Below are positions 25,002-29,997 of a DNA stretch of 64,000 nt, piece after piece. This DNA comes from Alphaproteobacteria bacterium Ga0077535 (GTDB lineage: Bacteria; Pseudomonadota; Alphaproteobacteria; Caulobacterales; Aquidulcibacteraceae): NCBI GenBank assembly GCA_001464425.1, contig LNEK01000004.1, positions 62,001 to 126,000 on the forward strand, given 5' to 3'. Below the pieces are notes generated by a model. It saw nothing but the letters and a program-made list of their open reading frames with translations, had not been told where the DNA came from and did not search any database. A program made the position numbers and the translations under genes. The stretch's first letter is position 1. Each line of letters opens with the position of its first letter.

Positions 25002-25588
25002 GGCAGCGCCAAGAAGTTTCTGAGCACACGAGCGCCCACAGCCCCTGATCGCTCTGGGTGGAATTGGCAGCCAAAGACATTGCCGCGCGCTACGGCCGCA
25101 GAAAACGGCCGACCATAGTCGGCCGTCGCGACGGTCGCGTCATCGACTGGGCAAGCGTATGAGTGAACGAAATAGGCGTACTCGCCTGAGGCAACGCCTT
25201 CAAACAGCGCGGTCTCGCGTTCGAATTGCAATGCGCTCCAACCCATATGCGGGATCGGCAAACGCGACGTAGGTTCAAGAGCAGTGACGTCCCCCGCGAG
25301 AAGCCCAAGACCCGCCACATCGCCTTCCTGGCTAAAGTCATAAAGCAGCTGCTGCCCGAGACAGATGCCGAGCAACGGACGCGGAAATTTGCGCAGCACT
25401 TGGCGCAGCCCATCATCGAGGAGCCGCATCGCGGCGGCGGCAGCGCCAACGCCTGGCAAAATCACCCGCTCCGCTTCAGCTATGCGTGCTGCATCGTCTG
25501 TAAGCTCCGCGGCCGCGCCGAGCCGCTCTAGCGCGAACATCACCGACGCAGTATTGCCAACGCCAAGTCTAATCACCGCGACGCTCAT
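24995..25588 (-). CDS. hisH: Imidazole glycerol phosphate synthase glutaminase subunit
   Basis: Class I glutamine amidotransferase of 197 residues. The triad is complete: nucleophile in LGICLGQQLL, and His/Glu in CQFHPERS. ILPGVGA and PHMGW are family landmarks. The N-terminus (VIRLGVGNTASV) differs slightly from the usual DYGxGNxxS. The ATG overlaps the end of the hisDB gene. Confidence 0.92.
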   Translation of the reverse strand: MSVAVIRLGVGNTASVMFALERLGAAAELTDDAARIAEAERVILPGVGAAAAAMRLLDDGLRQVLRKFPRPLLGICLGQQLLYDFSQEGDVAGLGLLAGDVTALEPTSRLPIPHMGWSALQFERETALFEGVASGEYAYFVHSYACPVDDATVATADYGRPFSAAVARGNVFGCQFHPERSGAVGARVLRNFLALPC

Positions 25589-27480
25589 ATGACGCCCTTC
25601 GTCGATGGCAATTCGGCGCCCTCAACGCGCACCGCCTGCCGCAATGCACGCCCCAGCGCTTTGAAACACGCCTCGGTTTTGTGGTGATCGTTTTCACCCG
25701 AGACAGATACGTGGATCGTCGCGCCCAACGCTTGCGCCAGAGACCGAAATACGTGCTCCGTCATTTCGGTCGGATAGCCGCCGAGCGCAGCTGCAGTGAA
25801 CTCGCCCTCGAACACCAGATACGGCCGTCCACCAAGATCGATCGAAATCTTCGCCTCGGCTTCATCCATGGGGAGCACAAAGCCAAAGCGAGCGATGCCG
25901 CGGCGTGCGCCAAGTGCGGTGTTCAGCGCTTGGCCGAACGCTATGGCGCAATCTTCGATGCTGTGGTGTGCATCAATGTGCAGATCGCCCGCACACGACA
26001 GCGTCAGCGAAAAGCCGCCATGGTGTGCAATCTGCTCCAGCATGTGATCGAAGAAGCCAACGCCGCTCGCGATCTGCACGGGCGCCGCACGATCGAGGTC
26101 AACGCTTACCGCAATTTGAGTCTCCTTAGTGGCGCGGTTGATCTCGCCGCGCCGCCGACGAGTGATTTCTGCAGCCGACCGTGTGGCTTGAATCGCAGCA
26201 CCGCGAACATCGGCGGCACGCGCGTGCGCTTCCAACCCCTCCAACCGCGCGAGACGCGCCGCCGGGCCAGCGATCATGCGCACACCAGCCTCACTCACCG
26301 TCTGCACCGCGAAGCTTTTCATGAACGATGCGGCGCTAACGCCGCCATAGGCCTTCGCCGCGGCATCCGTAGGCAGAACGTGGCTCGGCCCGACAACATA
26401 ATCGCCAAACGTCTCGGCGCTCAGCGCGCCCACGAACACGGCCCCAGCATTGCTGATCAGGCGCAACAGTGCTTCCGGATCAGACACCTGCAGGGACAAG
26501 TGTTCCGGCGCATATTCGTTCGCAACCGCGGCCGCCTCTTCAAGCGACCCGACACGAATAGCCCGCGCCTGTTCTAAAGATCGGCGCGCGATGGCCTCGC
26601 GCGGAAGTCCTGATACCTGCCGCTCCACCTCGGCTTCCACCTCGGCTAACACTTCGTCCGATGTTGAAAGCACAACCACTTGCGCGTCGGCATCGTGCTC
26701 TGCTTGGCTCAAAAGGTCGGCAGCAACGAACCGCGCATTTGCGCTGCGATCGGCGATGACCATGAGTTCACTCGGCCCCGCGGGCAGATCAATGGCGGGG
26801 CCACCACTCAGGCCGGCCGCATATCGCTTCGCTTCGGCGACATAGATATTCCCGGGGCCAAAAATCTTGAGCGCCTTCGGCGTGAACACACCGAGCGCCA
26901 ACGCGGCAATCGCCTGGGCGCCGCCGATCACCCACAAGCGCTCGATCCCGCACGCCGCGGCCGCGACGATCATAGCCGGGTGCGGTTGCCCGTCCGAACC
27001 GGGCGGCGTTGTAACGACGCGTTCGGTGACGCCTGCAACGCGCGCCGGCTCGGCCAGCATAATGAGCGTGGACACAAGCGGCGCGCTGCCGGCCGGCACA
27101 TAAAGGCCGCATGTTTCGATCGGCCGCCACTCAACGCGCGTGCGGACGCCGGGCATGCTTTCGATCGTCTGCGGCTTCGGCTTCGTCGCTTCGTGATAGA
27201 AGCGCACTTGATCGACGGCGAACGCGATGGCGTCGAGGTCCTCTGGCGCTAGTCTTGCGCGCGCTTGCTCGACAGTTCGGGCGTCAAGTTCGAGTATCGC
27301 AGGCGCACAGCGATCCAGCTTGACCGCCCACTGCGCGAGCGCCTCTTCCCCGCCCTGCGCCACCTCATCGAACAGCTGGCGCACAAAGCCTGACACCTCC
27401 GGCGAACAGCGTTGATCGGGCCGCGCAAGCACACGCTGACGCTCGTCCGCGCTGAGCTCACCCCATGCATAGCGTTTCAT
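25585..27480 (-). CDS. hisDB: HisD-HisB fusion: histidinol dehydrogenase + imidazoleglycerol-phosphate dehydratase
   Basis: One uninterrupted 631-codon frame. Residues 1 to about 430 are histidinol dehydrogenase (CGLYVPAGSAPL, GPGNIYVAEAKR, LPAGPSE, SQAEHDADAQ, EYAPEHLSLQ with the metal and catalytic His/Glu residues). From about 435 (TRRRRGEINRATKETQI) to the end is the dehydratase with its metal motifs DHMLEQIAHHG, DAHHSIEDCA and ENDHHKTEA. All active-site residues of both halves are visible. HisB is usually separate or fused to a phosphatase; this partner is unusual. No histidinol-phosphate phosphatase is encoded in the operon. Confidence 0.92.
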   Translation of the reverse strand: MKRYAWGELSADERQRVLARPDQRCSPEVSGFVRQLFDEVAQGGEEALAQWAVKLDRCAPAILELDARTVEQARARLAPEDLDAIAFAVDQVRFYHEATKPKPQTIESMPGVRTRVEWRPIETCGLYVPAGSAPLVSTLIMLAEPARVAGVTERVVTTPPGSDGQPHPAMIVAAAACGIERLWVIGGAQAIAALALGVFTPKALKIFGPGNIYVAEAKRYAAGLSGGPAIDLPAGPSELMVIADRSANARFVAADLLSQAEHDADAQVVVLSTSDEVLAEVEAEVERQVSGLPREAIARRSLEQARAIRVGSLEEAAAVANEYAPEHLSLQVSDPEALLRLISNAGAVFVGALSAETFGDYVVGPSHVLPTDAAAKAYGGVSAASFMKSFAVQTVSEAGVRMIAGPAARLARLEGLEAHARAADVRGAAIQATRSAAEITRRRRGEINRATKETQIAVSVDLDRAAPVQIASGVGFFDHMLEQIAHHGGFSLTLSCAGDLHIDAHHSIEDCAIAFGQALNTALGARRGIARFGFVLPMDEAEAKISIDLGGRPYLVFEGEFTAAALGGYPTEMTEHVFRSLAQALGATIHVSVSGENDHHKTEACFKALGRALRQAVRVEGAELPSTKGVI

Positions 27481-27487
27481 GGCGCCC

Positions 27488-28366
27488 TCACATCATCTTC
27501 TCGATGGGAAGAACGAGGATCGCTGAAGCGCCGGCCTCCTTAAGTGCCTCCAGCGTCTCCCAAAACACCGATTCCTGGCAGACTGCGTGCACAGCAACCA
27601 AATCCTCGCGCCCCGCCAATGTCATCACCGTGGGCGCACCGGCGCCCGGCAAGATTTCGGTGATACGCGCCAGCGCCGAACTTGGCGCATTCATCATCAC
27701 GTATTTTGCGCCCTGCGAGGCGACGACGCCGCGGAAGCGCGACAACAAGCTATCGGCCACGCGCTCCAACTCAGGATCCACACTTCGTGTTGCGCGCACG
27801 AGCACGGCTTCGCTCTGCAAGACTGTCGTCTGCGCAACGAGGCCATTGGCCTCGAGCGTCGCGCCGGTTGAGACGAGGTCGCAGATAGCGTCGGCCAGCT
27901 TCAAGCGCGGCGCCACTTCAACCGCACCGCGCATGGTGACGATGCTGGCGTCAACGCCCGCTTCGGCCAGAAAGCGCTTGAGCAGATTGGGGTATGTGGT
28001 CGCAATGCGCAGCCCGCGCAGCGATTGCGGGCCACGGTAATCGAAGCCGGCCGGCGTGGCGATGGCGAGGCGGCAGCGGCCAAATCCCAGCGGCATCACT
28101 TCGTGCAGGCCGTTGCCGCCGCCAGCTGCGCGCTCCGCCAGCACATTGCGGCCGACGATCCCGAGATCAGCGACACCATCCGCCACAAATGTCGGGATGT
28201 CGTCGTCTCGCAAACACCAAAGGTCGATCGGCGCGTTTTCGGCGCTGTAGGCCAGGTCACTGGCGCTCTTGGTCAGGCGATAGCCAGCAGACCCGATGAG
28301 ATCGAGGCTGCGCTCGGCCAGGCGGCCGCTCTTTTGGATGGCGATGTGCAAACGCTTGGGGGTCAT
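27488..28366 (-). CDS. hisG: ATP phosphoribosyltransferase, long form
   Basis: First enzyme of histidine synthesis, 292 residues from ATG 28366 (MTPKRLHIAIQKSGRL). LCLRDDDIP-like WCLRDDDIPTFVADGVADLGIVGRN and the PRPP loop DLVSTGATLEANGL are clear. The length and C-terminal region (MTLAGREDLVAVHAV) fit the long HisG with its own regulatory domain, which does not need HisZ. A start ten codons upstream is possible but less typical. It is the first structural gene after the leader and hairpin at 28419-28568. Confidence 0.92.
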   Translation of the reverse strand: MTPKRLHIAIQKSGRLAERSLDLIGSAGYRLTKSASDLAYSAENAPIDLWCLRDDDIPTFVADGVADLGIVGRNVLAERAAGGGNGLHEVMPLGFGRCRLAIATPAGFDYRGPQSLRGLRIATTYPNLLKRFLAEAGVDASIVTMRGAVEVAPRLKLADAICDLVSTGATLEANGLVAQTTVLQSEAVLVRATRSVDPELERVADSLLSRFRGVVASQGAKYVMMNAPSSALARITEILPGAGAPTVMTLAGREDLVAVHAVCQESVFWETLEALKEAGASAILVLPIEKMM

Positions 28367-28418
28367 GACGTACTCACGCGGCGCAAAGGTGCGCATCGGG
28401 CGAATTGAAAAGGCTCTG

Positions 28419-28446
28419 GAGCGAAAAGCGCTCAGCGCTTTCGCTC
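28419..28446 (-). terminator. Hairpin in the his leader (putative attenuator terminator)
   Basis: On the minus strand GAGCGAAAGCGC and GCGCTTTTCGCTC pair around a 3-nt loop with a single bulged T: a 12-bp stem. It lies 26 nt after the leader peptide stop and about 50 nt before hisG. The U-rich part after it is weak and displaced (CCTTTTCAATT), so its efficiency is uncertain. An upstream segment, CTCT... CCGTT near 28455-28470, could pair with AACGG..AGAG and block the 5' arm, as an antiterminator would. Confidence 0.55.
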
Positions 28447-28472
28447 TTTCCGTTTAACGGCGGATCAGAGCG

Positions 28473-28568
28473 TCAATGTCGCGGCGCGTGATGCGCGGCG
28501 TGAGCGTGATGATGAGGGACGCAGAACGCATGCGCCAGCGCACCCCGGGCGGGGCTCGCGGTAAGCAT
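28473..28568 (-). CDS. hisL: his operon leader peptide (His-rich)
   Basis: A 31-codon frame from ATG 28568 to TGA 28475-28473. Eight codons are His, seven of them within the last thirteen: CCTCATCATCACGCTCAC followed by GCGGCGCATCACGC... and a final CAT just before the stop. It sits between a plausible promoter and a hairpin ahead of hisG, the layout of a classical his attenuator, in which ribosome stalling at His codons decides whether the hairpin forms. The Shine-Dalgarno site is poor. Other frames here show no such bias. Confidence 0.75.
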   Translation of the reverse strand: MLTASPARGALAHAFCVPHHHAHAAHHAPRH

Positions 28569-28618
28569 GAGATCAGCGGCAGTACGCATGGTCTGAGCGG
28601 CGTCCTTGTACAGCGCCC

Positions 28619-28647
28619 AATAAGGGGCACGATCCGCGTCGGGTCAA
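28619..28647 (-). promoter_or_regulatory. Putative his operon promoter
   Basis: On the minus strand TTGACC (28647-28642) and CTTATT (28624-28619) are 17 nt apart and lie about 50 nt before the leader peptide start. The -35 is good and the -10 is weak, so this is a moderate prediction. Confidence 0.35.
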
Positions 28648-28713
28648 TATGAATGATACGGCCAAGAGGTCGCATCGAGGTAGCGCACCGCCCCAGACCA
28701 GGCTTCCCCCCTC

Positions 28714-29793: not shown

Positions 29794-29940
29794 GTGTCTA
29801 TGCGTACGCGCACCTCTTCTCGTTCGACGGCGATTGCGATCGCTGCGGACACGCGCGCGCTCGTACCGGTCGTAGGTCTTCTTCTTAGCGTACTCGCGCT
29901 TATTCTTACGCGCGGAGTGGCGTGGCTGCATGTGACCTGA
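29794..29940 (+). CDS. ilvL: ilv-leu operon leader peptide
   Basis: A 46- to 48-codon frame (ATG 29800, or GTG 29794 with GGGAG 8 nt upstream) ending at TGA 29938-29940. Counting from ATG, 17 of 46 residues are Leu (8), Val (6) or Ile (3), concentrated in [17 protein letters not shown]. Three consecutive CTT Leu codons and repeated GTA Val codons are not the CTG/GTC preferred in the nearby genes, as expected for stalling codons. A strong terminator begins 27 nt after the stop and ilvD follows, so this is a multivalent attenuator leader. Confidence 0.78.
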
Positions 29941-29967
29941 CCTTTACAAACAGGATCGCCAGCATCA

Positions 29968-29997
29968 CCCCGCTCCCGAAAGGCAGCGGGGTTTTTT
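29968..29997 (+). terminator. Intrinsic terminator/attenuator before ilvD
   Basis: CCCCGCT (29968-29974) pairs with AGCGGGG (29985-29991) and is followed at once by six T. A few more pairs can form inside (CC with GG). It is the best intrinsic terminator in the window. It lies between the leader peptide and ilvD, where a plain terminator would make no sense, so it is most probably an attenuator. Confidence 0.85.

Follow-up and report, generated by a model that had tools for sequence, protein, structure and literature searches.

A putative histidine-sensing leader stands in place of hisR upstream of hisG in a small alphaproteobacterial clade

A histidine-rich leader frame upstream of hisG

The window analysed here, that is, the whole 64,000-nt stretch of contig LNEK01000004.1 from Alphaproteobacteria bacterium Ga0077535, carries a his operon on its minus strand, preceded by a short frame rich in histidine codons. 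The genes and upstream features are the following:

28642..28647, minus strand: TTGACC, candidate -35 of the leader promoter, kept as TTGAC(C/G) in 8/8 leaders
near 28619-28624, minus strand: CTTATT, a poor candidate -10
28473..28589, minus strand: leader peptide frame of 38 codons
28473..28514, minus strand: block in which 7 of 13 codons are for His, with the stop, the proposed sensor
27488..28366, minus strand: hisG (long form), the first structural gene
25585..27480, minus strand: hisD-hisB, the next operon gene, a single 631-codon frame with the Pfam domains Histidinol_dh and IGPD
3' of hisD-hisB, minus strand: hisH-, hisA- and hisF-like frames, named from their own sequence

The hisG start is probably at 28366 and not at the 28396 of the open reading frame list, since residue 9 of the query or a later one is the first to be aligned in 30 of the 40 long HisG matches. 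The leader stop thus lies 106 nt from the likely hisG start in the window. The accessible part of PMC1963479 does not name the HisD-HisB fusion.

The original prediction described a 31-codon frame with eight histidines, seven of them within its last 13 residues, and read from ATG 28568 this frame is indeed real. Its start had been misplaced: we rejected the internal ATG in favour of the ATG at 28589, which aligns across all eight leaders that we recovered (see below). The full frame encodes the peptide MRTAADLMLTASPARGALAHAFCVPHHHAHAAHHAPRH followed by the stop, with eight His codons (5 CAT and 3 CAC) and a TGA placed directly after the last of them. In a six-frame translation of the 64-kb window a 13-residue stretch with seven histidines is unique to the leader, the best non-overlapping stretches having five. 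The eight leaders are 29-38 codons long and contain 6-9 His codons, with both CAT and CAC in use, and a His codon immediately precedes the stop in every one. Alignment gaps are multiples of three within the His block, and are not so 3' of the stop. Outside the block change is free, leaders L001 and L002 differing by 5 synonymous codon changes and 8 non-synonymous ones.

The N-terminal half of the peptide is likewise freely variable, as could be expected if the frame were a product of chance or an unrelated His-rich small peptide (for example a metal-binding one) that happens to lie before hisG. We regard such a non-regulatory origin as very improbable, given that the His cluster ranks first of its kind in the window, that the frame is kept before hisG in 8/8 members of the clade and is present only where hisR is missing, and that in all of them the final histidine and stop are followed, at a fixed distance of 1 nt, by an invariant pairing arm.

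A promoter-like pair had also been proposed just upstream of the frame. A strict sigma-70 scan found no leader promoter; what stands of the proposal is the TTGAC(C/G) motif, which is found 37-58 nt upstream of the leader ATG in 8/8 leaders. No clear ribosome-binding site was seen for the window leader, a weakness that had been admitted from the outset. The leader open reading frame of the rnTrpL/peTrpL trp attenuator of Sinorhizobium meliloti is leaderless, according to the accessible part of its description (PMC10117765), and by analogy the leaders L005-L007, whose ATG lies 37-42 nt past TTGAC, might be leaderless as well. The two systems are both alphaproteobacterial leader-peptide attenuators, as proposed here for his, but peTrpL concerns Trp and not His, and the likeness is one of description. 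RF00513 gave no match in the genome of the window.

Two overlapping hairpins follow the leader stop

Downstream of the leader, the RNA can be folded into two hairpins:

28442..28472, minus strand: antiterminator-like hairpin, arms GCTCT (28471-28467) and AGAGC (28447-28443), -14.6 kcal/mol
28419..28446, minus strand: terminator-like second hairpin, 12 pairs with one 1-nt bulge, -16.8 kcal/mol

The second hairpin, which begins 26 nt past the leader stop, is the 12-bp hairpin that had been predicted, and its presence is confirmed; the antiterminator-like one is newly seen and makes the predicted attenuation more credible. Its first arm contains a GCTC located one base past the stop that is invariant in 8/8 leaders and pairs with a downstream GAGC. 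In every leader the pairing joins GCTC(T/C) to (A/G)GAGC over a span of 18-20 nt. In the window, the GAGC at 28446-28443 is common to the antiterminator and to the foot of the second hairpin. When both hairpins were considered jointly against dinucleotide shuffles, 0/300 shuffles were as stable in six leaders and 1/300 in the other two.

Taking away the shared arm lowers the stability of the window's second hairpin from -16.8 to -9.1 kcal/mol. The cost is at least 5 kcal/mol in six leaders (for L007 an arm of 11 nt was blocked instead of 5), 2.6 kcal/mol in L008 (from -12.9 to -10.3) and nothing in L005, where the second hairpin stays at -13.5 kcal/mol. The two structures overlap in most leaders; their mutual exclusion is weak in L008 and absent in L005.

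Compensatory changes were found in the second hairpin, where both partners have changed in four pairs (five cells of the alignment); shuffles gave 1.3 such cells on average, and 2/500 of them reached as high a value. A control in which this hairpin was slid by -2 also gave five two-sided cells, but with 56.4% of cells paired, compared with 80.0% in the true register. In the antiterminator core 97.5% of cells are paired and four of the five pairs never vary; covariation gave no signal there (131/500 shuffles), and is uninformative because the core is nearly invariant. The inner helix of the antiterminator was unsupported on alignment A2.

The proposed mechanism supposes that transcription starts from the TTGAC promoter, that the leader is translated, that ribosomes can stall in it and that the off state is the one with the second hairpin formed. 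A ribosome standing at the stop would cover an arm one base beyond it, by the usual footprint size, and the first codon of the His block is 13 codons before the stop, so that a ribosome halted in the block would leave this arm uncovered; the second hairpin would thus form in the presence of histidine and be weakened without it. When histidyl-tRNA is plentiful, the ribosome would reach the stop and cover the GCTCY arm, GAGC would be free, the second hairpin would form and less transcription would enter hisG. Under a shortage of histidyl-tRNA, it would wait in the block of His codons, and the exposed GCTCY arm would capture GAGC, shortening the second hairpin and allowing transcription to continue into hisG.

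The leader is confined to genomes without HisR

We sought hisG in 61 genomes and compared the upstream DNA of 30 loci. The His-rich leader was found in 8/30 hisG upstream regions, all belonging to the genus of the window (the window's own genome, G001, G006, G009, G010, G017, G019 and G020), and its frame ends 97-128 nt before HisG residue 14 at these eight loci. The remaining 22 regions contain a small gene for HisR, of the TrpR family, with profile matches of 1e-49 or better. Within the genus, HisR is present in 17/30 genomes, at 17 hisG loci, and in 0/8 leader genomes. Profile PF01371 scored above its cut-off in the same 17 genus genomes only; below the cut-off, partial helix-turn-helix matches of 22 bits appeared in G010 and G020, within frames of 341-423 amino acids. 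We read these weak matches as ordinary helix-turn-helix proteins.

Five genomes of the genus have neither leader nor HisR, four of them having no HisG and the fifth, G008, a divergent one. In G007, G021, G024 and G025, rated 92-99% complete, neither HisG nor a match to HisD-HisB was found, and these genomes may either lack histidine synthesis or have assemblies from which the operon is missing. In G008, a divergent HisG (36% identity; contig 2, near 1740822) replaces the usual one, and there is no HisR.

In another collection, comprising 68 hisG loci, we found six leaders, from the same assemblies, and 59 HisR loci, counting L058 (match in two frames) and L098 (a weak match, 1.2e-8). Three loci had neither: L078 has 74 nt of upstream sequence and L096 is cut, and at L089 neither HisR nor a His-rich leader is seen within the 600 nt upstream of hisG. 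In a further 109 hisG upstream regions (108 from across the class plus G008; two of them short; all from operons that open with hisG) we found no such leader, and HisR in four. The leader filter recovered 8/8 known leaders as a positive control. The sole His-rich frame among the 109 regions is at L245, where 46 nt separate its end from the HisG domain, so that it probably lies inside hisG.

A model built from the eight leaders, R1, was run on 398 genomes of the order, with ten candidates scored per genome and E-values that are rough. The eight leaders, which match by construction, scored 66-115 bits and everything else at most 31.5 bits. At E up to 0.1 some match was present in 239/398 genomes, which we read as background, and the two best such matches, L137 and L138, have no leader-like His frame at their loci. 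We hence rejected the idea that the leader has spread through the order, as R1 gives nothing above 31.5 bits beyond the original eight. The conservation anticipated for the His run and the stem in relatives thus holds within one clade, with the His run in 8/8 and some compensatory changes in the stem, but does not extend to the 22/30 loci that have hisR or to the 109 additional regions.

The leader hairpin has no U-tract

None of the eight his leaders has a U-tract abutting the second hairpin, with 0-3 T in the following 8 nt. The window has a single T there, so that the poor U-tract conceded in the original prediction is real. Of the general traits of amino-acid attenuators, the leader frame rich in codons for the product is present in 8/8 and the U-tract terminator is absent in 8/8.

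The leaders of ilvD in the same genus are different. A hairpin with T4-T6 was found at 20/23 ilvD loci, and at 6/7 of those in leader genomes (23 of 30 loci were taken, the other seven being distant paralogues or the second piece of the gene of G023). When the same filter was applied to the his leaders, a T4-T5 run near a hairpin appeared in 2/8 (L001 and L006), where it sits about 7-8 nt beyond the main stem or within its 3' arm. Ordinary terminators therefore appear to be used elsewhere in these bacteria and seemingly not in the his leader. In the window itself, a Leu/Val/Ile-rich frame (29800-29940, plus strand) precedes ilvD, and a hairpin rich in GC and ending in T6 comes after it, the whole covering 29800-29991; judged from its sequence it is likely a branched-chain attenuator, and a leader frame matching it passed the filter at 9/23 genus loci.

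Transcription at the his leader might be stopped by a hairpin poor in U, by Rho or in some other way. In a Rho-dependent version, the C-rich RNA of the His codons would be a Rho loading site, bared by fast translation and release of the ribosome; a ribosome held up at the His codons would shield it, the operon would be read, and the hairpins would tune the process or serve as pauses, not as terminators. The difference in U-tracts between the his and ilvD leaders is in keeping with such a scheme. C exceeds G near the leader end, the best 70-nt segment being at the 95.8th-100th percentile of the window background in 8/8 leaders and overlying the leader end in 6/8. Yet this skew may mean nothing, because His codons are C-rich by nature, and a fixed segment taken from the stop downward ranks merely at the 81st-100th percentile. 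Rho would also have no clear need for conserved overlapping hairpins, and we consider this explanation rather unlikely, though a serious rival.

The missing U-tract would also be accounted for if the leader switch did not end transcription but hid or freed the start of hisG. Attenuators of this type exist (PMC9413887, in the part accessible), and by inspection several leaders have a hairpin just upstream of the hisG start. Against this, the hisG start lies 88-119 nt past the leader stop, outside both hairpins, and its opening cost between the two states has no consistent sign, being higher in 4/8 leaders and lower in 4/8. The lack of a consistent shift disfavours a simple, direct masking of the hisG start, which we rejected as the main mechanism, and translational attenuation appears to us more doubtful than the Rho scheme.

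HisR may be older than the leader

When 30 HisG sequences were placed in a tree, the eight leader-type proteins formed one clade (100/100) amid HisR-type ones, and the fork that joins this clade to seven HisR-type members of the genus has moderate support (87/81). A full-length, single-frame hisD-hisB was found in ten genomes of the genus, the two genes being separate in the others. These ten are six leader genomes and four HisR genomes of the joined seven-member group. A fusion common to leader genomes and to neighbouring HisR genomes fits an order in which HisR is older and the leader newer.

A single switch from HisR to the leader is seen on HisG and not on an independent marker. In a quick rpoB tree the leader genomes are not one group and two changes are needed for seven rows, and an AU test on rpoB with six leader rows did not reject a single leader group (p 0.256). 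Since rpoB does not settle the question, the his operon may instead have been transferred between species. In the window genome (G000, contig 39, about 93635-97641) rpoB is found in two frames with a break near residues 825-837, perhaps a sequencing error.

Discussion

We infer attenuation from what is observed at these loci, namely the frame, its conservation, the hairpins and the exchange with hisR. On these grounds the leader probably senses histidine and controls the his operon by ribosome-mediated attenuation, replacing the repressor HisR in one small clade. A fuller account, which we put forward tentatively and hold to be possible rather than probable, is that the repressor was lost within this genus and that an RNA attenuator arose in the same promoter-proximal place, one that lacks a U-tract and relies on a U-poor hairpin or on Rho, with the stalled ribosome guarding the C-rich transcript of the His codons.

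The original prediction had likened this arrangement to the his attenuators of enterobacteria. The leader resembles hisL (RF00514) in having a short His-rich frame before hisG, alternative hairpins and the same proposed logic. It differs in its single antiterminator arm, placed directly past the stop, and in the missing U-tract, whereas hisL of enterobacteria has a longer set of arms. Indeed, the A-F order of arms was not found in the window leader, and the Rfam model His_leader gave no gathering-level match in the window and, with E allowed to reach 10, nothing within 28340-28680, so that membership in RF00514 was rejected. The attenuation reading survives, as an inference; the enterobacterial layout is unsupported. 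The leader would act like a his attenuator, but one that works without the usual U-tract terminator and is missed by the Rfam model.

HisR, a DNA-binding repressor, occupies the same place before the same operon at 22/30 loci and is absent from the eight leader genomes. The accessible part of PMC9413887 describes HisR as the first gene of Caulobacterales his operons, reports His-leader attenuators in gammaproteobacteria and in HisR-less Firmicutes (the B. cereus group, Peptostreptococcaceae and Erysipelotrichales), and already contains the idea of an exchange between HisR and attenuators. Our case is like those Firmicutes in that a His-leader attenuator, putative here, is found in a HisR-less lineage with hairpins just downstream; they belong to another phylum, and the likeness is of description and not of compared structures. 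His leaders are also known before hisS genes in bacilli (PMC2965389, accessible part). For alphaproteobacteria we found no report of a his attenuator in the literature searched, a body of work in which subscription papers, including the 2004 Vitreschak survey, are largely not represented.

The finding would add an alphaproteobacterial lineage to those with his leaders, together with a leader unseen by the Rfam model. The neighbouring ilv leader, with its ordinary U-tract terminator, sharpens the question of how his attenuation would end transcription. Among closely related genomes, one branch would control this operon through a repressor and another through a leader peptide, and an exchange of protein-based for RNA-based regulation would here be open to study with few other differences.
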